From NCBI GenBank assembly GCA_900105225.1, contig LT629764.1, positions 2,140,501 to 2,204,500 of the forward strand: a DNA stretch of 64,000 nucleotides, given 5' to 3'. The DNA is from Paenibacillaceae bacterium GAS479 (GTDB taxonomy: Bacteria > Bacillota > Bacilli > Paenibacillales > Paenibacillaceae). The notes beneath the pieces are model-generated. The model was given only the letters and a program-made list of their open reading frames with translations, searched no databases and had not been told where the DNA came from. Positions 11,130 to 35,925 of the stretch are shown piece by piece; position 1 is the stretch's first letter; each line of letters begins with the position of its first letter. A program made the position numbers and the translations under genes.

Positions 11130-14100
11130 CTATTCCTTCCAATTTTCAATTCCAGTTTCAAGATGCTCGAAAGAATGCGGAATCGAAGCTTCCATGATGT
11201 CTAAATAATTGCTGTGATCTTCCGGAATATCGGTCCATTCCGGTCCAACCTTGATATCCCAAGGTTTACGATCCAGCAGCCCATTAAGGATTCTAATAAC
11301 CTCTAATCTCGTAATGGATTGATTCGGATTGAAGTTCTTCTCCGTAAAATGCACCAGCACACCTTGCTTCTCGGCCGTTGCGATGGCTTTTTCAGCCCAG
11401 TGTCCTGCTACGTCCGTATATGTGCTTTCCTGTGCGGTGTCCCATTGGTACACATTCATGAGGATCTGCGCGAATTCCGCCCGAGTGATTTGTTTCTTCG
11501 GTTTGAAAGTCTTGTCGCTGAATCCGACCATCCATTCATTATTGGATGCAGCCGTGATCGCATTCGCAGCCCAATGTTTTGCACTGACATCTGAATACGA
11601 TGCTTTGTTAGAGCCCGCTGCAGATGTATACAAACGGGACAAGATCGCAGCCATCTCCGACCGGATAATTCCTCGATCCGCTTGGAAAGTATCATCTGGA
11701 TATCCAACCATGTAAGCACTATGATCGCCTGTTGACTTTACTTTCGGCTTTGTAGAGAAACTGAATTCCACAATCGTGTCTCCGACATGGATGAGGCCGT
11801 CCTTAATATAGCTGTCATCCCCAAAACGCTCTTCACGCTTATCGGAACGACTGTCAAAAATGATGTAGCCATTCTTCTCACCTGTAAAGTAGTAATCACC
11901 ATCTGCGTAAACCATCCAGCCATATTGGCCGCTGGTTGAGCTTATCTGTGGGTTGTGATTTTTGTTCGGCGCAAAATCCGGAAGCTCAGGAAGTTGAACA
12001 AGCGTTCCCGGCACTCTGCCTTTGGAACGATTCAGTTCCGTATCCGCCCAATACAATTGCATATTCACTCCTGCAACAGGCTGATTTGTCACCGTATCGA
12101 GAATCGTACCATATGGATCGACCAGATCAACCGCCAACTTGGCATTTCCATTGCTATCCACAGTTAGCTTACCGGCAGGACCCGCCAGCTTCTCTCCGTT
12201 AGGCGCAAACACGTTCAGCGACAAAGTATATTCGCCGGATGGGAGTTGCGGAAGCGTAAAGCTGCCGTCTTGGCTCATCACAATATTGGGCAGATTCAGC
12301 TTTTGGCCGTTTGCTGATATTATTTCGCCGGTTACTTTCAAGTTGTTTCCGACGAGCTTCGTAATGATCTCCTGAACAACTTTGCCACCGTTCGCTTGGT
12401 CCGAAACAATGACTTCCGGTTTCATTGTAGGTGCAGGCTGTTGTACACCATCCGTATTTCCTGCAGGCGGAACTTCTACAGGTGGAATTTCTACAGGTGG
12501 GATTTCAACAGGCGCGTTTGGTTTGATAGTAACCACATTAGACATACCTGCATATGGACCCGATTCCACGTTTAATCGGAAATAGTAAGTTTCGTTACTC
12601 GATAAACCCGCTAACGTTGCACTTGTTGCAACAGCATCCAGCGTCTCCAATGGGCTAACCGGTCTAAAGGTAGTTCCGTCTGTAGATTGTTCTACAACAA
12701 TGTTCGTTGCCCCCGTTAAAGCAGGGAATTTCAATGTCACTTGTTCAATGCCTGCAACGGCCGACAAAGTGGTGATTGGTTCCGAAGGCGAGGCATCGAC
12801 CACATTGGACACGCCTGCATATGAACCAGATCCGACGTTTAATCGGAAAGAGTAGGTTTCTCCGTTCGTTAATCCGGTTAAGGTTGCACTTGTTGAAGCA
12901 GCATCCAGCGTCTCCACCGGGCTAACCGGAGTAAAGTTTGTTCCATCGGTAGACTGTTCAACAACGATGCTCGTTGCCCCTGTTAAAGCAGGGAAATTCA
13001 ATGTCACTTGCTGGTTGCCTGCAACGGCCGACAAAGTGGTCAACGATTTTGAAGGCGAGGCATCGACCACATTGGACACGCCTGCATATGGGCCCGATCC
13101 GACGTTCAGTCGGAAATAGTAGGTTTCGCCGTTCGTTAATCCGATTACGGTTGCACTAGTTGAAGCAGTATCCAGCGTCTCCACCGGGCTCACTGGAGTA
13201 AAGTTTGTTCCATCGGTAGACTGTTCAACAACGATGCTCGTTGCCCCCGTTAGAGCAGGGAAATTCAATGTCACTTGCCCATTGCCTGCAACAGCCGACA
13301 AATCGCCTAAAGGAGCTGGATCAGCCGCAATCACATAAACCGTAAATGTCTTCTCGCTAGTAAGCCCGTCTTTGGTGATGGTTGCCGTCAAGGTCACGTA
13401 AGTTCCCGATTGAGCGATTACCGGCCTTTTCACGGTTCCATCTGGCGCGATGACCGACGGCTGGTCAGAGGACCAGACGGTGGTTACGCCATCGTCTTGT
13501 TGCAGTGTAAGATTGTTTTTCACCGAGTTTTTCGTTTCTCCGAGTTTATACCCGATATCGGTTTTGTCCTCTGCCTTTTCAATGGCCAGAATACCATCTT
13601 TATAATCCGAAATGAGTTGGTTCGCGATTCGATCAGCTATTTCTTCAATGATATCAGCACTGGACTTATCGGAATTGACATGCTGACCGCCGTTTGTAAT
13701 GCCGTCGATAAACGTTTGGTCGATAACCTCATACGTGGCGCTGGTTACTCCAACATATTGTGCGCCGCTGTTATTGAATGACTCCGTCAGTTTAGATTGA
13801 TTCGTTCCCCCGTCTAATTCTCCGCGAGGGTCATCGTTAATGTTCACGATATAACGCAGCGGGGACGTTCCCCAATTGATTTTATCCGCGGCTACATCCA
13901 ATGGCTTGCTCGAAGTCGAAAACAACTTCATATTATCAAATGCAAAAATCGAAATAATCCCGCAGCCATGGCCTACATGGCTAACGATCGGACCAAATTC
14001 ATCTCCGTAAACATTTGGGAGAGTTAAATTCCTAATGATTTGGTCACCATTATCCCACATGTTCAACGTCGTATCCGTTGCTACGACTTTAATGCTGTGG

Positions 14101-19984: not shown

Positions 19985-22681
19985 TTACGATAGTCGCATC
20001 AGATCCAGCAACTGTCCGTTATCCATCTCCGTTATCCAGCTCTCCTGAATGTCGGGTACAATCTCATTGGACAATCGAAGCTTATCCGTAATGATTTGGT
20101 CGATCTTTTCCTCCACAGTGCCTTGCGTAATAAATTTGTGGACGATTACATTCTTCTGTTGGCCGATGCGGAAAGCGCGATCCGTCGCCTGATTTTCCAC
20201 TGCGGGATTCCACCATCTGTCAAAATGTATAACATGATTGGCCGCTGTCAAATTCAGTCCCACGCCGCCCGCTTTAATAGAAAGCACCATAAACGGCACA
20301 TAGTCCGTGCCCTGAAAAACGTCCACAAGCTCTTTCCGTTTGCTCACCTGCGTCTCGCCATGCAGAACGAGCCCTTTATGCTGAAAAATCGGCTCCAAAA
20401 ACGCTCGCAGCGATTCCGTAATCTCCTTGAATTGTGTAAAAATAAGCACACGTTCCCGCTTCTCATAAATCGTTTCGCATATTTCACGCAGACGCGCATA
20501 CTTCCCGCTATCCTGTTCGGCATAAACCTGCTGCCCCAAATACTGATCCGGGTGATTGCAGATTTGCTTGAATTTCATGAGCGCCGCCAGCACCAGTCCC
20601 TTGCGCCCAATGCCGTCCTCTGTCGATTCCAGCTTTGCTTGTAATTCCTTGACCAGCTTATTATAAAGCACCACTTGCTTCTTCGTAAGCGTGGCATACG
20701 TTTTCATCTCGATTTTGTCCGGCAGGTCCGTGATGATCGCACGATCGGTCTTCAGACGCCTTAAAATAAACGGACTAACCACCTGCCGCAGTCGCATGTA
20801 GCCCTCCACCGATTCACGCAGTTTACGCGTAAAGGAGGTAAACTCCTTCGCCGTGCCAAGCAGCCCCTTGTTCAGAAAATCGAACAATGACCACAAATCG
20901 CCCAGCCTGTTTTCGATCGGCGTGCCGGTCATCGCTACTTTGAAGGAGGCATTCATTTGCTTCACCAGCTTTGTCTGCTTCGTTCCCGGATTTTTAATAG
21001 CCTGAGCTTCATCAAGAATGAGGGAATCCCAATGGTGCTGCTGCAGCCATTCATATTTGGCAAGCATCCCATAGGTCGTAATGACGAGCCTAATATCCTC
21101 TGCAAGCGCGTCCGCCTCCTGAATATTTTTATTTACGGATGGGTGACAAACATAATAGTGCAGCGACGGCGCAAACTTGTTCAGCTCGCTCATCCAGTTG
21201 CCGATTAGTGAAGCCGGCACAACGAGCAGCGCGCTCTCCTTATTTTGCATACGGATGTGGTTGAGCAACGCAATAATTTGTACCGTTTTGCCCAGACCCA
21301 TATCGTCAGCGAGACAAGCGCCAAGGCCCAGCGTCTTCATCAAATGAAGCCAACTGACACCCCTTGTCTGATAAGTACGGAGATCGGCTCGAAAATCGTC
21401 TCCAGCTAACACCAGCGCCTCAATCCGTTCAGGCTGACGCAGCTCACTCATGACCGATTCCAGCCATTCCCCGTTCGTCACCTCAACCTCTACCTCTACC
21501 TTATCTGGATCAACCTGTAACGTACGCTCCGATTGCAAATGAAGCTGCATCGCCTCCACAATGCTGATCCCAGAACCTCCGGCTGCTTTGGAGGCTTGCT
21601 CGTAAGCATCGAGCGCCTGCTGCAACCGTTTGTGGTTAACCTCTACCCACTTCCCCTTAATGAGAGCCAGCCCTTCTTGCTCTGCAAGTAATTGCCTGAG
21701 CTCATCCGTCGTAAGAACTTCGCCGCCGAGCCACAGCTCGGCTTGAAAGCTGAGCAACGCCTCCGTATTCAAGCGGGAAGGCTCGCGATCACCCACACTG
21801 ACGTTCAGCTTGAGCGAGTTCGACTTGCTTCGCCACCATTTGGGAATCCGGCACATGATGCCAGCTTCCTCATATTGAATCACTTCACGCAGAAACATAT
21901 ACGCTTCCTCGGCTGTTAGACCAATCGGATAAAATAAATCGCCTGAATCGACCAATTCACGGATCAAATCACTGCTTTCCGCCGCGTAATGAACGGTAGA
22001 CAGCAGTTCGAGAAGCTTGCTGCTATTCTCGCCATATTCCACAAGCGCCTGTTTCAGCGGCAAATGGCGCGTCTTGCCCTCCGCCTGTTCCTCCGAGGCA
22101 TACGTGGATAGAAATGAAAAGGGATATTCACTCCCCTCCTTGCTCTCTACCAGATGAAAATAAACACGGCCAGTTGGCTGCACATCAGGACAGTTCGTCG
22201 CAAACCACTGGGACACAGTACCGCTATATTGATTCAGACTTGATGCCAGCCCGCGATGCAAGCCGTTCCAAATCTCTTCAATAAATCCCCTGTTTAAGTA
22301 TTCGCCTCCGACAAAAAACGGCGCTCCTGTCAGCCATCGTTCTACATCCTCATCCTCTAGCGGAATCGTCGCATCTAACCGTAAGCGCTCAATTTCGGGA
22401 TACCGCGCAACTCCCTTAATGAATGCCGCCCCAATACGCCGCAAAAAACGAAGCGATTCAGATCGTTGATCCGAAAGCTGCGTCAAGGCAAGCTCCAGTA
22501 AAAAATCATCCGGGCGTTGGCGGTACAGCTTATACAGAGAATTCTGAAGCATCAATTCAGCGGTATCTGCCTCCGTCTGTAAATCTCCGCCCTCCCAATC
22601 CAACTCGTATCGCTGATCCGGCAACAGAACAACAATAAGCTGGCGCTGATTGACACTTGCTATATTCGGTTGTTGAAGCAT
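19985..22681 (-). CDS. SNF2-family DEAD/DEAH-type helicase
   Basis: The 898-residue protein has an N-terminal SNF2-associated region (1-400) and a SWI2/SNF2 ATPase core. Motif I is DDMGLGKTVQ, motif II DEAQ, motif III MTGTPIENR, motif IV-like VLIFTQF, motif V KAGGVGLNLT and motif VI QATDRAFRIGQ. Such proteins translocate on double-stranded DNA and remodel protein-DNA complexes. The ATG at 22681 follows GGAGGGGG. It forms an operon with the SWIM protein. Similar pairs occur in core genomes and in defence islands, so its role here (repair, transcription recycling or defence) is undecided. Confidence 0.9.
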   Translation of the reverse strand: MLQQPNIASVNQRQLIVVLLPDQRYELDWEGGDLQTEADTAELMLQNSLYKLYRQRPDDFLLELALTQLSDQRSESLRFLRRIGAAFIKGVARYPEIERLRLDATIPLEDEDVERWLTGAPFFVGGEYLNRGFIEEIWNGLHRGLASSLNQYSGTVSQWFATNCPDVQPTGRVYFHLVESKEGSEYPFSFLSTYASEEQAEGKTRHLPLKQALVEYGENSSKLLELLSTVHYAAESSDLIRELVDSGDLFYPIGLTAEEAYMFLREVIQYEEAGIMCRIPKWWRSKSNSLKLNVSVGDREPSRLNTEALLSFQAELWLGGEVLTTDELRQLLAEQEGLALIKGKWVEVNHKRLQQALDAYEQASKAAGGSGISIVEAMQLHLQSERTLQVDPDKVEVEVEVTNGEWLESVMSELRQPERIEALVLAGDDFRADLRTYQTRGVSWLHLMKTLGLGACLADDMGLGKTVQIIALLNHIRMQNKESALLVVPASLIGNWMSELNKFAPSLHYYVCHPSVNKNIQEADALAEDIRLVITTYGMLAKYEWLQQHHWDSLILDEAQAIKNPGTKQTKLVKQMNASFKVAMTGTPIENRLGDLWSLFDFLNKGLLGTAKEFTSFTRKLRESVEGYMRLRQVVSPFILRRLKTDRAIITDLPDKIEMKTYATLTKKQVVLYNKLVKELQAKLESTEDGIGRKGLVLAALMKFKQICNHPDQYLGQQVYAEQDSGKYARLREICETIYEKRERVLIFTQFKEITESLRAFLEPIFQHKGLVLHGETQVSKRKELVDVFQGTDYVPFMVLSIKAGGVGLNLTAANHVIHFDRWWNPAVENQATDRAFRIGQQKNVIVHKFITQGTVEEKIDQIITDKLRLSNEIVPDIQESWITEMDNGQLLDLMRLS

Positions 22682-22693
22682 ATTGCAATTGCC

Positions 22694-22753
22694 CCCTCCA
22701 ACTCGTCATTTATGGACATTATATCATAATCAAAAGAGCCACCAACCAGATAA
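22694..22753. repeat. duplicated promoter segment, copy at the SNF2 gene
   Basis: This 60-bp stretch upstream of the SNF2 gene is repeated at 28029-28089 upstream of the zeta antitoxin gene with only about four differences. On the minus strand it holds half of a hairpin, a -10-like TATAAT in TGATATAATGTCC, and the ribosome site AGTTGGAGGG. Here the hairpin is complete. Confidence 0.85.
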
Positions 22754-22771
22754 CTGGATGATGGCTCTTTT
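22732..22771. terminator. hairpin upstream of the SNF2 gene
   Basis: The inverted repeat AAAAGAGCCA ... TGGCTCTTTT encloses a second pair (CCAG/CTGG). It ends the small zinc-ribbon gene on the minus strand and lies immediately upstream of the SNF2 promoter. Confidence 0.75.
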
Positions 22772-22776
22772 GATTA

Positions 22777-22834
22777 CATATGGAGGCGAACCGTGGCTGT
22801 TCAAAACCACAATTCGCCGCTGCGTGATGCTCAG
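22777..22834. repeat. dispersed palindromic repeat, copy D (best copy)
   Basis: The text CATATGGAGGCGAACCGTGG is followed by a loop, CCACAATTCGCCGC and TGCGTGATGCTCAG. GGCGAA pairs with TTCGCC and GTGG with CCAC, giving a stable stem. Related copies occur at 3192, 4922, 11089 and 24718. The opening CATATGGAGGCGA also matches the sequence at the tmRNA 3' end (35561-35573). Confidence 0.6.
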
Positions 22835-22868
22835 AATGTTCTGGGAATTATCTTAGGTTTAGCATATT

Positions 22869-23045
22869 TCACTTTGATGGACACTCCGAATTTGGACAAT
22901 AAATCTCAGTTTCATATTCAGTCTTTGAACGTATTACTTTTTTATGCGATAACTCAACTTTATATCTTTCTATCATCCCTTGTCCACATGCACATTTTGA
23001 ACTTGAAATAAGTTCTGTACTATCAATTTCCCAACTGCTCCCCAT
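22869..23045 (-). CDS. small zinc-ribbon-like protein
   Basis: The ATG at 23045 lies eight bases after CAGGAG, a good ribosome site, and the 58-residue product has CACGQG in the middle and CPNSEC near the end, i.e. a CxC...CxxxxC arrangement that could bind zinc. I do not recognise a family. It ends just before the dispersed repeat and the hairpin at 22732-22771. Small zinc-ribbon proteins of this kind are often regulators or accessory factors, but no role can be given here. Confidence 0.6.
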   Translation of the reverse strand: MGSSWEIDSTELISSSKCACGQGMIERYKVELSHKKVIRSKTEYETEIYCPNSECPSK

Positions 23046-23345
23046 TTTTATCACTCCTGTTTATAAATTATGATACTTTTGCATACTCCTTTAGACCTAT
23101 ATTGATCAACTTACCTCATGGTGACTGCAGAATTATCAAAACGCGATCAATGTGAGCCATTGCTTTAATTGACCAATGATTCCTCCAAACAAGAATTCAA
23201 ATCCTCAAAGTAGGCCCTGTTCATATAGTTATGGCTTTATAAGGACAAGGGCTCATGTTTCCGATTATTGAATCCACAATTTTCTATTTTGTGATACTGC
23301 GGTTGTTTGGTGAGGTTGCTTGAGACTTGAAATGGTGTAGTGCTG
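23046..23345. other. intergenic region, possible gene remnant
   Basis: No gene is supported. Near 23255-23323 a plus-strand stretch reads MFPIIESTIFYFVILRLFGE before a stop, which looks like the start of a membrane protein, but nothing follows it. The rest shows no recognisable feature. Confidence 0.35.
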
Positions 23346-24545
23346 CTAAAATAATTTATCCATAGGAAAGTCCTTAGAATAATAATCTTGATGAATTACT
23401 AAGTGATCATCAGGTATACCAAATTCGAATGAGAATTTTTCCTTTATTCTGTGCGGATTGGGATCAACAATCGTAATTCGAGGTACAGTTTTCCTTTTCA
23501 TAAAAGCATTTTTAAACAAATGATTGCTTTGAATATCCGTGACTGGAAAGGAATATCCAATAATAATAATCTCACTCGCTTCAGTCAAACAAAGTTCTGC
23601 TTCTCTCCATAACTCCTTAAACAAGTCGCCATACATGTCGTAGGTTTTATGCTTAACAGGTGGGATAATTAAAGGCATTGAAGTAAGTCCAGACTTCCCA
23701 GCAGTGCCTTCAGGCATATGAGGAAATCTTGGGGTTAATCTAACGAACACTTGATCTTCTGGAGCTGGCTTTCCTGGGTCCGGTATATTCGGTGGGTAAT
23801 ATCCATAGGAGTACGGTTCGTAATTACTCATATATCTACCATTATGTGTATCGTAAGGATCAATAGTAGATTCAAAAATATAAAAAGTTTCAGGGCCAGC
23901 TGACTGAGTCATTGTTATCTTCTCATTTTCAATCGTAGTTGCACTACTTAGCCAGTTGGTAGAACCGTGTAGTTTAATAAGCTTAGGATAGTCAGTTTTT
24001 TGTGGGATTGAAGCAGGTTCCCATGCATTTCTATAGATCATTTTAGGCGTTACAAAATACCCAGCATCCGGAGTCCATTCCGTAGTTTCTGCTAATGCTC
24101 GATCCATAAGTGTATCCCAATTGAAAGTAACAATAACATCATCCTTTTTCAAAAGCTTAGCTAAATTTATGTGTGGTTCAGACACAGGCCCATTTTGTAT
24201 TTCATTAATAACAGAAGTAAATAGAAACACCAATTGATTATAAGACTTAAAGGATTCCCTAAGGCTGACAAAGTCTTGTGAATCATTAAAAGCATGAAGT
24301 AACTTTTCCTCAATCTCAGAATGTAAAACTTCAATGTCTGTACTATAATTCACAAAATCTTCTGGTTTCATCTTGTGGTGTTGGTTCAAGTAATTAATAA
24401 TCTCTCCTACCAAAACCCATGGATTTTGACTTATTTCTAACTTGTTGTAAGTTTTAAAAAAATCAATTGCAACGGGCATTCTAATCTTTGTTGGGGAACC
24501 ATCATAAGCTTTTGATGCGCCAGCTCCCAGAATGATAGCTTTCAT
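23346..24545 (-). CDS. SIR2-like domain protein (putative defence NADase)
   Basis: The 399-residue protein has a SIR2-like fold: N-terminal GAGASKAYDG (NAD-binding loop), TFNWDTLMDRAL with the Asn/Asp of the NAD site, KLHGSTNW with the catalytic-type His, and C-terminal IIIIGYSFPVTD. Such SIR2-like proteins, without zinc fingers, occur in anti-phage systems (for example Thoeris ThsA, DSR, SIR2-pAgo) where they deplete NAD+. It begins MKAIILGAG after AAAGGAG. Its neighbours to the right are AbiH and Nudix-wHTH genes, supporting a defence context. An AbiH-like or housekeeping deacetylase role is less likely but not excluded. Confidence 0.82.
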   Translation of the reverse strand: MKAIILGAGASKAYDGSPTKIRMPVAIDFFKTYNKLEISQNPWVLVGEIINYLNQHHKMKPEDFVNYSTDIEVLHSEIEEKLLHAFNDSQDFVSLRESFKSYNQLVFLFTSVINEIQNGPVSEPHINLAKLLKKDDVIVTFNWDTLMDRALAETTEWTPDAGYFVTPKMIYRNAWEPASIPQKTDYPKLIKLHGSTNWLSSATTIENEKITMTQSAGPETFYIFESTIDPYDTHNGRYMSNYEPYSYGYYPPNIPDPGKPAPEDQVFVRLTPRFPHMPEGTAGKSGLTSMPLIIPPVKHKTYDMYGDLFKELWREAELCLTEASEIIIIGYSFPVTDIQSNHLFKNAFMKRKTVPRITIVDPNPHRIKEKFSFEFGIPDDHLVIHQDYYSKDFPMDKLF

Positions 24546-24796
24546 TCTTCCAATTCTCCTTTGGTCTAGTTTTAGCTCTAAGATACGAATATGCTACTCT
24601 CACTCCAATGCTATTCTCACCCAATCTGATTGGAAGCATGATGAAACCATGTCCAACAATACTGGTCCTGGTTTATATGAACAAGGGTTGGATTTACAGA
24701 GCCATGGCTCTGTAAATCCATAATTCGCCGCCGCGTGATGCTGAGGGTTTTTGAGAAGGTGTCTTAATAAACATCTTCCATTGGATGTGTTAACCT
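24546..24796. other. intergenic region between SIR2-like and AbiH genes
   Basis: The region holds the SIR2 ribosome site, a hairpin at about 24691-24720 (GGATTTACAGAGCC/GGCTCTGTAAATCC) and a partial copy of the dispersed repeat. I see no gene. Confidence 0.6.
24718..24746. repeat. dispersed palindromic repeat, copy E (right half)
   Basis: TAATTCGCCGCCGCGTGATG then CTGAG matches the right half of copy D (22809-22834) with two differences. The left half is replaced by an unrelated hairpin. Confidence 0.5.
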
Positions 24797-25717
24797 CTAG
24801 GAAACGTGATAAGTATCAAACACACCATTAAACCCACAAGATTTAATAATACTTTCGTATTGCTTACGTAGTGCAATATCATCAAAGTCATTTAGATACC
24901 AAGTAACGTTTGCATTCGATAACCTGCGACAAATCTCCGTTATGTATATTTTATCAACCTCCGAGAAAGAAAATCCAAAAGAATATACTCTATCAACAGA
25001 TATTGTTCCAATACTATTAAAGAAATCCTGGTTCCCTTTAATAGCTTCGGTTGTGTTCTTTCTTAATTTTTCTAGCATATCCTGTAGTGCATTCTCAGAA
25101 CCAACATGGCGACCCATATATTCTTCTGTATAATCAGTATCGTTTCCATGCCCGAACAATAATTTGCCCCCTTGCTTCCCGTGAATGTGACAAACATTCT
25201 TTGCTTCGTATAGCGCCTCTAAAGTAGCAGTGTAATTGAAAGTTAGGAAAAGATCTTTACTATTATCAATCAGCTTTTCAAAATCACCCTTGGGAGATAC
25301 TTCATCAATATCAATTGTATTAATCCATTCAGCAAAATAATCGGTAATCTCCAATACTGCTCCAACGAGATTGTTTGATAGGTCTTCATTTCTGTAAACT
25401 GTGTGCCACTCGTTATCATCATCGTCGTCATAGTTATCGAGGTATTCATTTAAATCTAAATAACCAAGTGATGTTTCGAGATCGGACCATTTTTCACCTT
25501 CCGGCTCGGCATTGGTAACGACCGCTATCAAGAAACCTACTACATCAATATCACCATAACTCATATCACCATCGGGCATCATTTGAGCTTCGGGTACACA
25601 TCCATCGAATAAAGCATCAGGATACTCCTCCTTAAGATATTGATGGAAGTCTTCATAAGATGTTTGCATACCATGAGCTAAATCAAATCCATTACCAATA
25701 ATATATAAATTCGCCAT
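24797..25717 (-). CDS. AbiH-family abortive infection protein
   Basis: From the ATG at 25717 (ribosome site AAAGGGGTG) the product is 306 residues. It begins LYIIGNGFDLAHGMQTSYED, the hallmark of the AbiH family, and has the FLTFNYTATLEALYE and CHIHG motifs of the related SIR2-like fold. AbiH of Lactococcus confers phage resistance by abortive infection; the mechanism is not established. A stretch of acidic residues (DNYDDDDDNE) interrupts the domain near residue 100. Its promoter lies inside a 59-bp near-perfect palindrome and shares a motif with the Nudix gene promoter upstream, so regulation by that Nudix protein is likely. Confidence 0.87.
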   Translation of the reverse strand: MANLYIIGNGFDLAHGMQTSYEDFHQYLKEEYPDALFDGCVPEAQMMPDGDMSYGDIDVVGFLIAVVTNAEPEGEKWSDLETSLGYLDLNEYLDNYDDDDDNEWHTVYRNEDLSNNLVGAVLEITDYFAEWINTIDIDEVSPKGDFEKLIDNSKDLFLTFNYTATLEALYEAKNVCHIHGKQGGKLLFGHGNDTDYTEEYMGRHVGSENALQDMLEKLRKNTTEAIKGNQDFFNSIGTISVDRVYSFGFSFSEVDKIYITEICRRLSNANVTWYLNDFDDIALRKQYESIIKSCGFNGVFDTYHVS

Positions 25718-25737
25718 TTGAATCACCCCTTTACCCA

Positions 25738-25796
25738 ATTATACAAAACACAATTAACTAAGTCAATATAACTTAGTTAATTGTGTTTTGTATAAT
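25738..25796 (-). promoter_or_regulatory. 26+26 bp perfect palindrome containing the AbiH promoter
   Basis: Positions 25738-25763 and 25771-25796 are exact reverse complements separated by seven bases. On the minus strand the palindrome contains TTGACT (25766-25761), a 17-base spacer and TATAAT (25743-25738), a near-consensus promoter for the AbiH gene. The text TTAACTAAGTCAATATA (25754-25770) recurs with one change at 26866-26882 in the Nudix gene promoter. The palindrome starts four bases beyond the Nudix stop, so it could also act as a transcript-end hairpin. Confidence 0.8.
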
Positions 25797-25801
25797 CCAA
25801 T

Positions 25802-26833
25802 TTAAAATGAGTTGTAAATGGATAGACTGAGTTCGAGTTCCTCGTCTCTAAATTGATAGAGTTGCGTTTTGGGTCCGGCATACCTTTGTTCCTTCTTATT
25901 AAGAACCTCTAAAAGACCCTGTCTTCCCTTAGTTGAAAGAAGTTTTTTGGAGAAGTTTGTTTCGTCAACCTGAAATTCAGGCACAGTATCCCTCAATAGT
26001 CGATGTAACTCTCGGAGAGTAAATCCTGTTTCATCTAAAAAATGCCTTGCTATTGTCTTTGTTAATAATTCAGTATGCATTCGTTTAATAGCGCAACGGA
26101 GTATATCCTCATGGTCAAATGCTAATCCTAATTCAAGTGCTTCATCTAAGGTAAAAAGTTTTGCTTCCATAGCATCTGTACTCGCTTCTAGATCCTTAAA
26201 TACTACCTCCCTAAACACATCAGTCCCGTTTTGAACAGTTACAAAAACTTCTGGTCTTACTAATGCAAAATATGCAACAGATGGTATCCATCCCCTTGGG
26301 TCTCTACCTTCGTAGTAGAATGTCTTTAGCTGATCGAGTTTAAAGTCCTTGACAATACCGGTCTCCTCTTTTAACTCCCTTTCTGCCGCTGCATCTAAAG
26401 TTTCATCTACCTTAGAAAATCCTCCCGGTAATGCCCACCTTCCCTCGTATGTTTCTTCCTTCCGACGAATTAGCAAAATATACGGCTTGAAAGTCGGCAT
26501 ATGTGGGCGTTTTTTGTGCTCAAACATAGGAATTACCGTAAAAACACAAATATCTACCGGTAACCCATCAGGTGTCTGAAAAGCCCCAACAGATTCTTCA
26601 GCTCCTGGCAATAAACGTATTTCACCATTGGAGTAGTGGGCGTAAACTGAAATGTTATTCTGAGATCCAACAACTAATTCACTAACAACACAAGAAGTTT
26701 CATCAGAGTTCAATCTCTTATAAAACTGTCCATTTAGGTGAACCTCATATGCTAAAGCTTGTGGATCAGCTAAATCAGTCCAATTTACTCGTATGGGCTT
26801 TGTTAAAAGTTGCTCTATATTCAGCTTACTCAA
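25802..26833 (-). CDS. Nudix protein with N-terminal FN3-like and C-terminal wHTH-like domains
   Basis: A TTG at 26833 follows AAGGGGTG; the ATG at 26851 would overlap the -10 hexamer, so I prefer the TTG (343 residues). Residues about 10-80 look FN3-like (VNWTDLADPQALAYEVHLNG). A Nudix domain follows with an intact box: GGFSKVDETLDAAAERELKE, then ETGI. The last 110 residues resemble the winged-helix tail of NrtR-type regulators (LDETGFTLRELHRLL, then FSKKLLS). NrtR proteins bind ADP-ribose-type ligands and repress NAD genes; an intact Nudix box suggests hydrolase activity may be retained. It probably represses itself and the AbiH gene. Confidence 0.82.
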   Translation of the reverse strand: MSKLNIEQLLTKPIRVNWTDLADPQALAYEVHLNGQFYKRLNSDETSCVVSELVVGSQNNISVYAHYSNGEIRLLPGAEESVGAFQTPDGLPVDICVFTVIPMFEHKKRPHMPTFKPYILLIRRKEETYEGRWALPGGFSKVDETLDAAAERELKEETGIVKDFKLDQLKTFYYEGRDPRGWIPSVAYFALVRPEVFVTVQNGTDVFREVVFKDLEASTDAMEAKLFTLDEALELGLAFDHEDILRCAIKRMHTELLTKTIARHFLDETGFTLRELHRLLRDTVPEFQVDETNFSKKLLSTKGRQGLLEVLNKKEQRYAGPKTQLYQFRDEELELSLSIYNSF

Positions 26834-26851
26834 CAATCTACACCCCTTCAT

Positions 26852-26882
26852 ATTATAAAGTTATTTTAACTAAGTCATTATA
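26852..26882 (-). promoter_or_regulatory. promoter and candidate operator of the Nudix gene
   Basis: On the minus strand TATAAT (26857-26852) lies just upstream of the ribosome site. The -35 region overlaps TTAACTAAGTCATTATA (26866-26882 plus strand), which matches 16 of 17 bases of the AbiH palindrome core. A small palindrome AGTTA-TTT-TAACT overlaps it. Confidence 0.65.
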
Positions 26883-27177
26883 TCATATAATTAGAAACAC
26901 TGTTCTCCCAAAATGACTACCGGACTTTCTAAACCAGCAACTCAAATCGACTGCCCATACATTTTCTTGTCATCTCAGTAACCAATCTAAAGCCATAAGA
27001 AATGTGCCCAACATCTTCAATAACAGGCAAAGCTACTGAAGTACAAGAAAAGTACCGCCAAAAGCGTCACCTAGACGAAATTGGCGGTACCTCTAAAAAA
27101 TGTTTTAACCACAAGCGGACTGAAACCTTGCCCAACATTAACAATGGTGGTTTTGCATGAACAATGGTTCCGATAAA
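26883..27177. other. degraded intergenic region with a hairpin
   Basis: A hairpin (GTACCGCCAA/TTGGCGGTAC) lies at about 27052-27090. On the minus strand, around 26930-27010, a short open stretch reads VGHISYGFRLVTEMTRKCMG and ends in a stop; it looks like the end of a decayed gene of unknown family. Nothing else is supported. Confidence 0.45.
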
Positions 27178-27255
27178 CGAGGGGATTTGAACCCCTGTCC
27201 GAAGGCAACGGCACACAGGCATCTACGGGTGTAATCGTGGTTTTAATGTCACCTG
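27178..27255 (-). repeat. partial tmRNA 3'-end copy (candidate att site)
   Basis: The first 56 bases (27178-27233) are identical to 35571-35626, the T-arm and flanking part of ssrA, and the next 22 are partly similar (TAATGTCACCTG against TGATGTCACCTG). The outermost acceptor-stem bases differ, so it cannot be a working tmRNA end. Fragments of this kind mark the distal end of elements integrated into ssrA. Confidence 0.85.
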
Positions 27256-27256
27256 A

Positions 27257-27832
27257 TCATATATAAGCAATCAGAGCGTTTCTTGACCAGGCAGGTAATG
27301 ACTCCATACAATAGGTCAGCTTTCCCTCCATGATTTCAGCCACAATGGAAGGCACGAATGTATTATCAATGATAACGACATGATCCGCGATAGATAGAGC
27401 AGGATTAAGGTTTTTTAAAGATTGACCATAACGAAAACGAATATCCTTTTCTGCAATCCAATGTCCACCCTGCTCGACCCGAGAAGCTACACGGTCTATA
27501 TGCATTTGGACATCTTGGAGGCCGATGTAGTACATGGCAATCTGATATCCGGTTTCTTTTGCAAGTTGCATATGCTTCAGAACAAAAGTGCCTGATAAGG
27601 TCGTCTCAACGGCAAAATGTTCGCCTCTTTTAATGAGAGAACGGATTCTTTTTACCGCTTCCCTTCCCGCAGATAGATCAGCACTGCGTGGGTCATCCGG
27701 TTTTAGTTCCCGTGCAATCTGGTCAGGATCAACCAATTCACCGAGCCAATTCCTCATTTGCAAGCTGATCGTGCTCTTGCCAGCCCCGTTAGTACCTGCA
27801 AAAACCGTCATAATAGGTCGGGTATTATTCAC
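27257..27832 (-). CDS. zeta-toxin-like P-loop kinase
   Basis: The 191-residue protein has Walker A GTNGAGKST near residue 13, VDPDQIARELKP, and ETTLSG around residue 75, the pattern of zeta toxin/UDP-N-acetylglucosamine kinase-like proteins. Members phosphorylate peptidoglycan precursors or other small molecules. The GTG start overlaps the last eight bases of the upstream small gene, a typical toxin-antitoxin layout. It is the first gene inside the ssrA-bounded island. A metabolic kinase role cannot be ruled out, since YbfB/zeta-like P-loop kinases vary. Confidence 0.82.
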   Translation of the reverse strand: MNNTRPIMTVFAGTNGAGKSTISLQMRNWLGELVDPDQIARELKPDDPRSADLSAGREAVKRIRSLIKRGEHFAVETTLSGTFVLKHMQLAKETGYQIAMYYIGLQDVQMHIDRVASRVEQGGHWIAEKDIRFRYGQSLKNLNPALSIADHVVIIDNTFVPSIVAEIMEGKLTYCMESLPAWSRNALIAYI

Positions 27833-28022
27833 TATATTCTAACTCCCGCCGATTGCCGGTTGCATCAAAAAAGATCTCAAATTTGTTCCCATCTGCATCT
27901 TCCCGGATACGTTTATTGTTTTTTATATAGTAAATGGAAGCACCTGATGCTTTGGCTTGCAGACGGGCATATTGATTTGCTTTATTCAATATTTCCTGGA
28001 GCTGTTCTCGATTGGACAACAT
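27825..28022 (-). CDS. putative antitoxin of the zeta-like toxin
   Basis: From the ATG at 28022 (ribosome site TTGGAGGG) the product is 65 residues: a helical N terminus (MLSNREQLQEILNKANQYAR) and a beta-rich basic middle (ASIYYIKNNKRIREDADGN). Its end overlaps the toxin start by eight bases. Small proteins of this type are seen directly upstream of zeta-like toxins, although this one does not resemble classical epsilon antitoxin in any motif I can name. An upstream in-frame start (28115) would read through the promoter region and is less likely. Confidence 0.7.
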   Translation of the reverse strand: MLSNREQLQEILNKANQYARLQAKASGASIYYIKNNKRIREDADGNKFEIFFDATGNRRELEYSE

Positions 28023-28028
28023 CTTGAT

Positions 28029-28089
28029 CCCTCCAACTGCGTCATATACGGACATTATATCATAATCAAAAGAGCCACCAACCAGATAA
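28029..28089. repeat. duplicated promoter segment, copy at the zeta TA locus
   Basis: This 61-bp stretch matches 22694-22753 with one inserted base and about three substitutions. On the minus strand it supplies a -10-like TATAAT and the ribosome site of the antitoxin gene. The hairpin that is complete at the SNF2 copy is cut after its first half here, so this copy looks derived. Confidence 0.85.
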
Positions 28090-28200
28090 TAAACTGTGAC
28101 CCGTAAGATGGACACTTTGAAAAACAGCGGCCTTCTTGCCGGTCGCAGTTCAGCCGTCGGGGGTTCAGGTCTCTTACGGCTTTATTTTCATGAACAAACA

Positions 28201-29496
28201 TTAAATAGTCTTACTGATTTCATTAATGGGCGGCAGACTATTTAAACGATCGATCAGTTGCCTAAGGCTTGTTATGTTTGCAGCATACTGCCGGACATCC
28301 TCACCAAGCAGTTTGTCGACCTGTTCTCTTGTGAACGTAAAGCTATACGTTGCGCTTTCATATTGACCTGTGTTGTCATCCATCGAGGTGGTAATGCTAT
28401 CGACATTATCAATCAGGCTTAAGAGCAGAATGGAATTACGCAAAAAAAATTCACCACTTATTGCACCGTCTTTTTTCACATAAGTAGAGTCATTCATTAT
28501 ATAGTTGATGGTCAATCCATAAGGCTGAGCCTTCGTTTGGAGTTCAATCCCTTTACCTTCAAAACCTATTGGCTTGGGCATTGCACGGATAAGACCGTCT
28601 ACCTTTGCTGGGTTACCCACATAAAGTGTTTTGTTCTCCATAAGCTTATCCATATTAAATCCGGAATAGGATGGCTGCGATAATTGCTGTAAAGGCTTAG
28701 GATTGGCTGTACACCCTACAACCAAGGCTGCAATAACGAGCATAGAGCCTGCGACTATCCAAGTAGGAGGTTGACGATAAGAGAGAATATTTTTAATTCT
28801 TGCCTTAATATTACTCTCTCCAAAGGCAAGTGGACTACCGGTTAATAACCCGCTTCTGCTTACTGAAAGAGAAAGCAAGGAGTTTGAATAGCTTCCTTTA
28901 ATCTGGTGGCCCATCTTGCTCACGACACGCTCATCGCAGGACATTTCCATATCTTTACTCACGAGCGCATAAGACAGCCACATAAGCGGATTAAACCAAT
29001 GGACGATAAGTATCATAAACGCAAAAGGTTTTATCAGATGATCTCGTCTCATGATATGCGTTTGCTCATGCAGTAAAATGTAAGACAGCTCATGCTCACT
29101 TATGCTGGTCGGAATGTATATTTTCGGCTTCAAAAAACCGCAAACAAAGGGTGTGGCTATCTGGTCAGTCTCAAAGATATTATCTTTGACGAGGGTTGCC
29201 GTTCGGACACTAGCCAGTATTTTTAAGTACGAAATGACGCTGTAAAGAAAGAGAATGGCTGCGCCTGTTATCCAGATTATACTTCCGATCCACATGATGT
29301 TTTGCATAGGATTTGCGCTTGCCATCGGGTTAGCAGCTGGAAGTGATGAATTTACCAAACGGCTTATCCCACTAATTCCATGTCCATAACAGGATTTAGC
29401 TGCATCCCAATATCCTGTGGCACAAATTCCATGAAACCTGTGCCAGCTTTGGCCTGGGGCTGCACCAGTCGTAATATACTGAAGCTTGAAGTCAGG
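28201..29496 (-). pseudogene. M56 (BlaR1-type) metallopeptidase, frameshifted and IS-truncated
   Basis: The C-terminal frame (28201 to about 29372) encodes a BlaR1/MecR1-like M56 peptidase with the zinc motif HEQTH, the downstream Glu region CDERVV, a TM segment (WIVAGSMLVIAALVVGC) and a DUF4825-like end (TLYVGNPAKVDGLIRAMP, then YGLTINYIMND). Upstream another frame continues the protein (GFMEFVPQDIGMQLNPVMDM), shifted by one base near 29371. The N-terminal membrane segments are missing because the IS4-family element begins at 29497. Such peptidases normally cleave a BlaI-type repressor in response to wall stress; no blaI is visible here. Confidence 0.8.
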
Positions 29497-30722
29497 CCTG
29501 TTGATTAACCACTAAATGGTAGAAAAAAAGTCGCCAACTCGGTAAAATGTTTGTACCCCTACAAACAACCGAAAGGTGGCGACTCCATGAAAAAGTCTAC
29601 CATGATTCCATCTATCCTTCAAACTGTATTGACCCCCGATGAAGTCGAGCTTGTGGTCCAAGCTGTCGGCTATGTGGACAACGCCCGGAAATTCACGGTC
29701 TATGATTTGTTCTTGTATTGGAGTGTTGCCGCCAGTGAAGAATGGCCCAGCTATCGTTTCGGAGCGGATCATGCGGCCAGCAGCGGTTTGCGCCCCGTGC
29801 ACTACTCTTCTTTTTCCGGCACAGCAGCTGATGTACCGTTTGCGGTATTTAAGGAAATTTTTCATCTCATCGTCCGCAAATGCAACCGAGAAACACGGCG
29901 GAAACTGGCCTTCCCTAAAGAATTGCTGCTGATCGACTCTACGACCATGACGGTGGGAAAAACACGCTTGCCATGGGCGCCTTACCACGGAGAACGTGCT
30001 GCGGTAAAGTTGCATGTAGCCTTGCAGGCTCAAACGATGCAACCCCTTCAAGTGACCGAGACGGTTGGCTCTAAGCACGATGGGCCGGTGTGCGAATCGC
30101 TAGAAAACACAGCCTTTATTATGGTTATGGATCGAGCTTATGGGAAATTGGAGCGTTTGGATCGCTATAAACAAGAGGGGCAATCCTTCGTGATTCGATT
30201 GCGCGACAATGTTCATGTGGAAAAGCCCCGTGCACTACGACGTGAAGCTGCCGATGGTTCTTCTGTCATTCGCGACATCACCTGTCAACTAGGTACGCCT
30301 CAATGTCGTACGGAGAACCGTCATCGTGTGGTTATCTTTCGTGATTTTGAGGGAAGAGAAATCCGCGTTGTGACCGATTTGATGACCGTAACGGCTGAAC
30401 AAATCGCGTTGATGTACAAAGCTCGTTGGCAGATTGAGGTTTTCTTTCGCTGGATCAAACAGCATTTGAACATTCCGACTCTATTTGGTACGACAGAAAA
30501 CGTCGTCTATGGCCAGCTGTTCTGCGCGCTGATCGTCTTTGTACTGCTCAAATGGTTGTTCGACGGTGCAACGCAAACGCTGCCTCGACATGCGAGGCTT
30601 TCTTTTGTCCGTTTCACTCGCTTGCTCCTTTTAAATGCTTTGCCGGTTGAATGGACGATACGCCTGCGCCGATTGATAGACGGGGGCCTTATTTTAGATA
30701 CATATTCTGGTTAATCAACAGG
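29497..30722 (+). mobile_element. IS4-family insertion sequence
   Basis: The element is bounded by imperfect-free terminal repeats CCTGTTGATTAACCA (left, 29497) and TGGTTAATCAACAGG (right, ending 30722) and contains one transposase gene. It interrupts the M56 gene on its left and the end of the S8 peptidase gene on its right, so flanking DNA on the two sides is not from one original gene and no target duplication can be recognised. Confidence 0.85.
29587..30714 (+). CDS. IS4-family DDE transposase
   Basis: From the ATG at 29587 (ribosome site AAAGGTGG) the protein has 375 residues. The DDE-type core shows LLLIDSTTM (first Asp), VMDRAYGK (second Asp) and the IS4 signature YKARWQIEVFFRWIKQHL (Y-R-E-K) that carries the final Glu. 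Length and motifs are intact, so the element may still be mobile. It lies within terminal repeats at 29497 and 30722. Confidence 0.9.
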   Translation: MKKSTMIPSILQTVLTPDEVELVVQAVGYVDNARKFTVYDLFLYWSVAASEEWPSYRFGADHAASSGLRPVHYSSFSGTAADVPFAVFKEIFHLIVRKCNRETRRKLAFPKELLLIDSTTMTVGKTRLPWAPYHGERAAVKLHVALQAQTMQPLQVTETVGSKHDGPVCESLENTAFIMVMDRAYGKLERLDRYKQEGQSFVIRLRDNVHVEKPRALRREAADGSSVIRDITCQLGTPQCRTENRHRVVIFRDFEGREIRVVTDLMTVTAEQIALMYKARWQIEVFFRWIKQHLNIPTLFGTTENVVYGQLFCALIVFVLLKWLFDGATQTLPRHARLSFVRFTRLLLLNALPVEWTIRLRRLIDGGLILDTYSG

Positions 30723-31490
30723 TCTGCTGCAAACTAATTTTATTATATAAATCCAGTTCAGTATCTTCAGTTTTAACTGAAACTACTACTGAAAAAGATA
30801 CTGTTTGATTCGGATTTTCTGTAGCTCCCCACCAACCACCTGTTGGATAAACAGCTAGTTTTTTTCTGGACGCTAACTCAACTGCTAGCCCACTCCAACC
30901 ATCCGATTGAACAGTTCCTCGACTACGTGCCTGTTTCCCAATCTTCCAGTATTTTGAAGATTCAAACCTACTTTCTCCTTCTTCTCTCTCAGCGTGATTG
31001 ATTCTCTTAATAAACTGTTCAGTCGTTTCATCTGCACGTTGTAAATCCCATTCAAGTCCCATTCCTTCATAAGCTCTAAGCACATTTTTGGGATTAGGCT
31101 CTGAAAAATTAGAAAGAGAAACACGTAGTTCAACTGGAAGTTCACCCAGTTGGTTTAAATCGTCTTCAGGCCACGGTAGATCAAAGAGAATAATATCCCT
31201 CTTCCACTCACTCCACTTCATTCTACCACGCTTACCCATAATACGTTCTCTATAATATGGTCGTAGACTACCTTCCGATATTAATGTAACAGCAAATTTT
31301 GCACTTCTGCAAGCAGCATATACATTAGGAGTTCCGTATCCGCACGCCCGAAAAAGATCTTTTTTATTCGGAAATTGGGCCTTCATTGCATCTGTCCAAT
31401 CCGCTGAATGAATCAATAGTGCTCTAACAGTCGTCGGTTTTAGTTCAGGATTAGCTTCCCATATCTGAGCGAGGATTCTAGAAGCTTCCT
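30723..31490 (-). pseudogene. C-terminal remnant of an S8 (subtilisin-like) peptidase
   Basis: The minus-strand frame reads SRILAQIWEANPELKPTTVR then ALLIHSADWTDAMK, the helix after the catalytic Ser in S8 peptidases, and continues with LPWPEDDLNQLGELPVELRV and NFSEPNPKNVLRAYEGMGLE. This C-terminal layout is that of subtilisin-like proteases encoded beside AAA ATPases in defence-associated loci. The Asp, His and Ser catalytic segments are missing: the IS3-family element cuts the gene just downstream of where the Ser motif would be, and the IS4-family element clips its last residues. No ATPase partner gene remains. Confidence 0.7.
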
Positions 31491-35564: not shown

Positions 35565-35925
35565 TGGAGGCGAGGGGATTTGAACCCCTGTCCGAAGGCA
35601 ACGGCACACAGGCATCTACGGGTGTAGTCACAGATTTGATGTCACCTGCAAGAGCGCCCCGTAACCGGCTATCCTACAGGTCAGCCTGATTGTCTTCTTC
35701 AGCACACCCCAGGCGGAGATGCGACAGCGTAGCCTACTAAGAGTGAGCCCCTACATCCGGCACATAGGCGATGCTGGAGAGAAGCTTAGCATACAGTTTC
35801 TTAGGCTGCTGCTAAAGTTGTACGTTGGTTGCCATTTAATAGGCTTTAGCGTTGATAAAGCGGACGCGTCCCCACTACCCGCAACCCATGCTCGAACTAC
35901 CCCCGTCGAATCCATAAACGCCCCC
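35565..35925 (-). ncRNA. ssrA: tmRNA (ssrA)
   Basis: The acceptor stem pairs GGGGGCG (35925-35919) with CGCCUCC before the terminal A (35565). The 5' part begins GGGGGCGTTTATGGATTCGA, typical of tmRNA, and the 3' part contains the T-arm GGGGTTCAAATCCCC. CCA is not encoded. The resume codon is GGC at 35833 and the tag reads GNQRTTLAAA then TAA (35803-35801). tmRNA with SmpB (gene at 36166) rescues stalled ribosomes and tags the protein for proteolysis. A -10-like TATACT lies at 36065-36060. The 3' part is duplicated at 27178-27255, indicating use as an integration site. Confidence 0.96.

Follow-up and report, generated by a model that had tools for sequence, protein, structure and literature searches.

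The window analysed here, a 64,000-nucleotide stretch of the genome of Paenibacillaceae bacterium GAS479, carries a minus-strand row of three genes encoding a Nudix protein with a winged helix-turn-helix (wHTH) domain (25802–26833), an AbiH-family protein (abiH, 24797–25717) and a protein with a SIR2_2 domain (23346–24545). We propose that the first two probably constitute a two-gene cassette, in which an NrtR-type repressor controls its own gene and abiH, ADP-ribose would release it, and AbiH would then shut the cell down. An earlier reading of the sequence alone had joined all three genes into one metabolite-sensing defence module; gene calls and Pfam confirm that the three are present and adjacent, and that interpretation is now partly supported, being right on the pair and wrong on the trio. 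The host genome is a single contig of 5.52 Mb, and its nearest relatives, judged from named matches, are Paenibacillaceae.

Paired operators in the window and in related genomes

The sequence-only reading had noticed a 17-base motif in the promoters of abiH and the Nudix gene. The recurrence is real: the motif occurs exactly at 25754–25770 and with one change at 26866–26882, these are the sole matches in the window at up to three mismatches, only 0.11 such matches are expected in 64 kb, and two matches were found in none of 100 shuffles. This 17-mer is one half of a longer palindrome. The abiH operator, TTAACTAAGTTATATTGACTTAGTTAA, with a GT-N7-AC core, spans 25754–25780 on the minus strand, and the Nudix-gene operator, ATGACTTAGTTAAAATAACTTTATAAT, spans 26852–26878 on the same strand. 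The abiH promoter, TTGACT-17-TATAAT (25738–25766, minus strand), agrees with the consensus at 11 of 12 positions and is the strongest consensus promoter in the interval 23000–27200. The motif had been placed next to the -35 at both genes; in fact, at abiH it contains the -35, and at the Nudix gene the aligned operator fills the interval from -35 to -10 and overlaps the -10. The start codon of abiH is ATG 25717, a correction of the earlier assignment, and that of the Nudix gene is probably TTG 26833, after AAGGGGTG. In the 5.5-Mb genome the pattern RACTNNGTYAWAWTRAC has three matches, of which just two are non-coding, namely both operators; the third, within coding sequence, was set aside, and the reversed control gave none.

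The abiH copy of the 17-mer lies within one arm of a perfect inverted repeat, whose arms are 26 bp long and separated by a 7-nt centre; the repeat runs across the abiH promoter (25738–25796, minus strand) and was missed by the earlier reading. The single-strand fold of this repeat has a z of -10.4. The palindrome stays perfect far past the conserved operator, with TATAAT on both strands, and the same region in Gorillibacterium is just 76% palindromic; template switching is, with a question mark, its suggested origin. An invertible promoter was considered and dropped, the 7-nt centre being too small. A search of Rfam with 22000–28500 returned no match.

Gorillibacterium timonense has the same arrangement of operator, Nudix gene, operator and abiH, at protein identities of 75% (Nudix) and 63% (AbiH), and its Nudix gene likewise has a TTG start. 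Its DNA aligns with the window at 73% identity, starting at the abiH stop codon (24797) and ending a little past the Nudix operator (26887); this minus-strand interval is the extent of the conserved unit. Paenibacillus terrae aligns over 25754–26913 at 88%; there, the Nudix gene is frameshifted and abiH is gone, with both operators kept. Read in gene direction, the abiH operator is TTAACTTAGTCATATTGACACAGTTAA in Gorillibacterium and ATAACTTTGTTATATTGACGTAGTTAA in P. terrae, and the Nudix operator is ATGACTTAGTCAAAATGACTTTATAAT and ATAACTCAGTTAAAATAACTTTATAAA, respectively. GT-N7-AC, with the core GTYAWAWTRAC, is common to these four and the two of the window. In the window and in Gorillibacterium, the abiH -35 (TTGACT or TTGACA) lies within the operator, 17 bases from TATAAT or TATATT, and the alignments of their promoters beat all of 1000 shuffles (scores of 25 and 32, where the shuffles reached no more than 18 and 19, respectively).

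These alignments bear on a very improbable alternative, that the two genes are chance neighbours, a stray NAD (nicotinamide adenine dinucleotide)-salvage nrtR having landed beside abiH, with the motif a coincidence or the leftover of a promoter duplication. Such an accident would suit the rarity of the pair, the loss of abiH from P. terrae and the host genome, where no other close NrtR was found. However, the paired operators, the gene order and the promoter overlap have been kept across two genera at 73% DNA identity, no NAD gene is nearby, and intergenic matches to the operator pattern occur nowhere else in the genome.

The operators were also compared with those of NAD-salvage loci. A matrix was built from the central 15 columns of 26 operators, TTTATATAGTCATATTGACAATATAAA and similar, situated upstream of and after nrtR in NAD-salvage nrtR genomes (L061–L074), with no site from the Nudix–abiH unit included, and was run over the window and the retrieved loci. 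The candidate sites had come out of a palindrome search that required a GT-N7-AC core, and this biases the matrix towards it. In 17 kb of Gorillibacterium, the Nudix promoter came first at 20.8 bits and the abiH promoter second at 15.4 bits; in 200 random sequences, no first score exceeded 20.2 and no second score 13.9. The shared operator-like element is thus borne out: it is conserved in Gorillibacterium and P. terrae and has the core found at NAD-salvage nrtR loci, which fits auto-control and control of abiH by an NrtR-type protein. Its wings read TTAACT here, as against TTTATA at the NAD-salvage loci.

The regulator and AbiH

Sequence and model together indicate that the regulator is most likely an NrtR-type protein. 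It has the NrtR architecture, a Nudix domain followed by the NrtR winged helix: in Pfam, NUDIX (PF00293) matches at 57.7 bits and NrtR_WHD at 22 bits, which is under the cut-off of 27, as is the 23.9 bits of one NAD-salvage NrtR. The best NCBIfam match is an ADP-ribose (ADPR)-responsive repressor model, with a score far under its cut-off. The structural model has a mean predicted local distance difference test score (pLDDT) of 76, with the N-terminal 85 residues poor, and its top fold match is the DNA-bound NrtR of S. oneidensis (E 4.9e-15), followed by AraR. The Nudix box is canonical (GFSKVDETLDAAAERELKEETGI); several NAD-salvage relatives lack a canonical box. An extra FN3-like N-terminal domain (fn3, 19.5 bits, below the cut-off of 25) was found in this lineage alone, apart from a weak match (29%) in one further genome.

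The closest relatives outside the unit are Paenibacillaceae proteins of about 260 amino acids, 44–47% identical and devoid of the FN3-like part, several of which adjoin a nicotinate phosphoribosyltransferase-family or nicotinamidase-like gene. In Priestia koreensis, a more distant relative stands at the head of a gene row that encodes isochorismatase-type (nicotinamidase-like), nicotinate phosphoribosyltransferase and nucleotidyltransferase proteins. The regulator has in common with NAD-salvage NrtR this level of identity, the Nudix and wHTH domains, a GTCA-N3-TGAC core and presumed autoregulation, and a family-like palindromic operator does lie in its own promoter, clear-cut in Gorillibacterium and weaker in the window. 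It differs in its FN3-like domain and in its predicted target, which here is abiH. The neighbours are not NAD genes, and the operator pattern occurs at no NAD gene in the genome; therefore, we file the regulator as NrtR-like and not as the NAD regulator NrtR.

AbiH, with 306 amino acids, is a predicted Sir2-superfamily effector. PF14253 matches it at 209 bits (cut-off 30.9) over positions 1–259 of 260, so that the domain is full-length, and the GNGFD, FNYT (N161) and HG (H179) motifs are invariant among 21 AbiH sequences. Such invariance is as expected of a Sir2-type NAD site. Its model has a pLDDT of 85, and the top fold match in the PDB is the SIR2 protein of SIR2-HerA (E 5.2e-3, prob 0.91), with AVAST5 second (E 2e-2); the template modelling (TM) scores of the two are about 0.36–0.39, that of SIR2-HerA being 0.36. 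The invariant motifs and fold matches agree with the earlier prediction that AbiH is a Sir2-superfamily enzyme (Makarova 2012, PMC3506569). A sequence search of the PDB with AbiH gave no match, and a profile comparison with the SIR2 neighbour, tried as sequence proof of a Sir2-like AbiH, was too weak and was discarded. In its full-length domain with invariant motifs, the protein resembles AbiH of Lactococcus, where AbiH causes abortive infection; AbiH is also active in S. thermophilus, and its mechanism is listed as unknown (PMC12322248). Unlike the catalogued AbiH, a single-gene system, the one described here has a dedicated predicted regulator with its operator.

A proposed switch and its alternatives

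Sequence supports the gene pairing, the conserved operator pair, the kinship with NrtR and the overlap with the promoter; the sign of the regulation, the ligand, the chemistry of AbiH and its role in defence are inferred. In the scheme that we propose, the Nudix-wHTH protein would bind two palindromic operators sharing the core AGTYAWAWTRAC, one in its own promoter and the other across the -35 of abiH, and would repress both genes. A rise in an NAD-derived ligand, most likely ADP-ribose, for example upon phage infection or the firing of another NADase, would lead the Nudix domain to bind it; the repressor would then come off the DNA, and AbiH would be made and shut the cell down. As its Nudix box is intact, the regulator may also hydrolyse the ligand and so reset the switch, and AbiH, if itself an NADase, would provide positive feedback. 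It is tempting to assemble all these steps into a transcriptional second-wave defence switch, in which ADP-ribose set free by NAD breakdown during infection is read by the NrtR-type repressor and arms a Sir2-type AbiH, with positive feedback from the product of AbiH and Nudix reset; we regard this fuller version as tentative and rather doubtful.

Release by ADP-ribose has precedents in the NrtR proteins of S. oneidensis and Synechocystis (PMC4666351) and of M. smegmatis (PMC6800001). In addition, an NADase toxin of P. aeruginosa, NatT, causes derepression of NrtR targets in vivo (PMC11535050). The NatR–NatT case is alike in that NAD breakdown by a toxin derepresses the targets of an NrtR protein; there, however, the targets are salvage genes that rescue the cell, whereas the effector predicted as the target here would do it harm. 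A further comparison is with the ADP-ribose glycohydrolase (ARG) conflict systems, in which ARG enzymes are accompanied by Nudix-HTH or WYL regulators; the Nudix-HTH ones were predicted by Iyer et al. (2022, PMC9503650). As in those systems, a Nudix-HTH regulator predicted to sense ADP-ribose would control an adjacent conflict gene. Unlike them, the present locus has no ARG (none among the neighbouring genes by Pfam), phosphatase or Macro gene, and its effector, AbiH, is not mentioned in PMC9503650.

The ligand is where the proposal is most readily replaced. The regulator might control itself and AbiH through both operators and yet sense neither ADP-ribose nor NAD; the signal would then be a different nucleotide, a sugar or some partner that its FN3-like domain binds. 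This is unlikely. In its favour, within the family NdnR senses NAD and AraR arabinose (PMC4666351), and the N-terminal domain is peculiar to this lineage; on the other hand, the closest relatives are at NAD-salvage loci, the operator core is held in common with them, and the Nudix box is intact. A second alternative dispenses with metabolite sensing: the regulator would act as an antitoxin-like gate that holds AbiH at a low level by steady repression, and the block would be lost when host expression collapses in infection or the cassette is lost. We consider this quite improbable. An autorepressed regulator upstream of a suicide-type effector does recall toxin–antitoxin operons, and the setting beside an ssrA integration site is a mobile one, but the persistence of AbiH homologs that have no regulator speaks against unregulated AbiH being toxic, and a sensor domain has been kept with its full Nudix box.

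Several observations weigh against the NrtR-type repressor–AbiH cassette as proposed. The ligands of the family vary, as just described; the role of the extra FN3-like domain has no explanation; and the Sir2 kinship of AbiH is weak by sequence and moderate by fold. In the matrix scan of the window, the abiH operator scored 12.9 bits, which is the best in 64 kb and yet expected by chance, and the Nudix operator scored 7.5 bits and ranked tenth; the abiH-side site of P. terrae ranked just fourth in 17 kb. What carries the operator claim is therefore Gorillibacterium together with conservation, and not the window by itself. Moreover, only two intact Nudix–AbiH examples were found: among the collected AbiH loci, the genes occur together just in the window's own loci and in those of Gorillibacterium (L002 and its duplicate L162), and neither viral contigs nor the remaining collected AbiH loci showed a Nudix regulator next to AbiH. 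Because most AbiH proteins lack such a regulator, including one from the same genus that is 89% identical, AbiH does not need it.

That same-genus genome (G298) has abiH at 90% DNA identity (89% in protein) and lacks the Nudix gene. Its homology with the window stops right at the outer edge of the inverted repeat (25738), and thus regulator and operator are absent together. The AbiH homologs at loci L094, L095, L096 and L110 likewise show no Nudix regulator next to them and no visible operator. Where the Nudix gene is lacking, the operator is lacking as well, and this counts in favour of the cassette. At L160:9790–15006, the G298 gene is part of an island that also holds a TIGR04141 protein, an adenine methyltransferase and further genes without assigned function.

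The Nudix–AbiH cassette is rare, and it is a new variant of NrtR-type regulation, applied to AbiH; in the literature searched, we found no paper that connects AbiH with NrtR or any Nudix protein. Known since 1996, AbiH still lacks a mechanism, and a dedicated NrtR-type regulator points to NAD metabolism as the theatre of its action. If the proposal is true, an NAD-salvage regulator has come to control a defence gene predicted to kill the cell, having exchanged its target but retained its operator core.

The SIR2 gene and the ssrA island

Since homology with Gorillibacterium is confined to 24797–26887, the SIR2_2 gene (23346–24545, minus strand) is a neighbour outside the unit and has no counterpart in Gorillibacterium. 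The SIR2_2 match (PF13289) is 24.8 bits, barely over the cut-off of 24.5, with the TFNWD and LHG motifs intact. The gene is flanked by 68-bp imperfect direct repeats, 72% identical, at 22788–22855 and 24699–24766 (the latter between abiH and the SIR2 gene), whose core is nowhere else in the genome. Among 400 family genomes the only relative of the SIR2 protein is a pseudogene, and viral contigs hold two more; in the stretches examined none had Nudix or AbiH neighbours.

It is thus highly improbable that the SIR2 gene is a functional part of a three-gene system. Adjacency, a common strand and intact catalytic motifs are in its favour. Against it stand its absence from the Gorillibacterium unit, the lack of an operator at the SIR2 gene, where none was found, the 251-bp gap with its own palindrome, the flanking repeats and the neighbourhoods of its relatives. 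The co-occurrence expected of the three families held for the Nudix–AbiH pair, which recurs, and failed for the trio, which appears in no locus searched.

One of the 68-bp repeats carries a perfect 32-bp palindrome (24689–24720), and a sequence related to the repeats follows abiH in G298 (L093/L160); possibly, the repeats mark a cassette boundary. The Nudix–AbiH unit starts 0.3 kb past a copy of the 3′ end of ssrA (tmRNA); this 78-bp, 92% copy involves 27178–27255 and 35565–35925. The site is an ssrA integration hotspot with an island between the copies, comprising insertion sequence (IS) elements, a zeta-toxin-like P-loop gene, an M56 peptidase gene, an IetS-like fragment and DUF3800. A similar copy of the ssrA 3′ end lies in P. 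terrae (L003) at 12192–12274, 3 kb from the Nudix remnant. The fragment at 30715–31416, which adjoins a DDE transposase gene, is like the C-terminal part of the defence protein IetS and is a remnant of another defence system.

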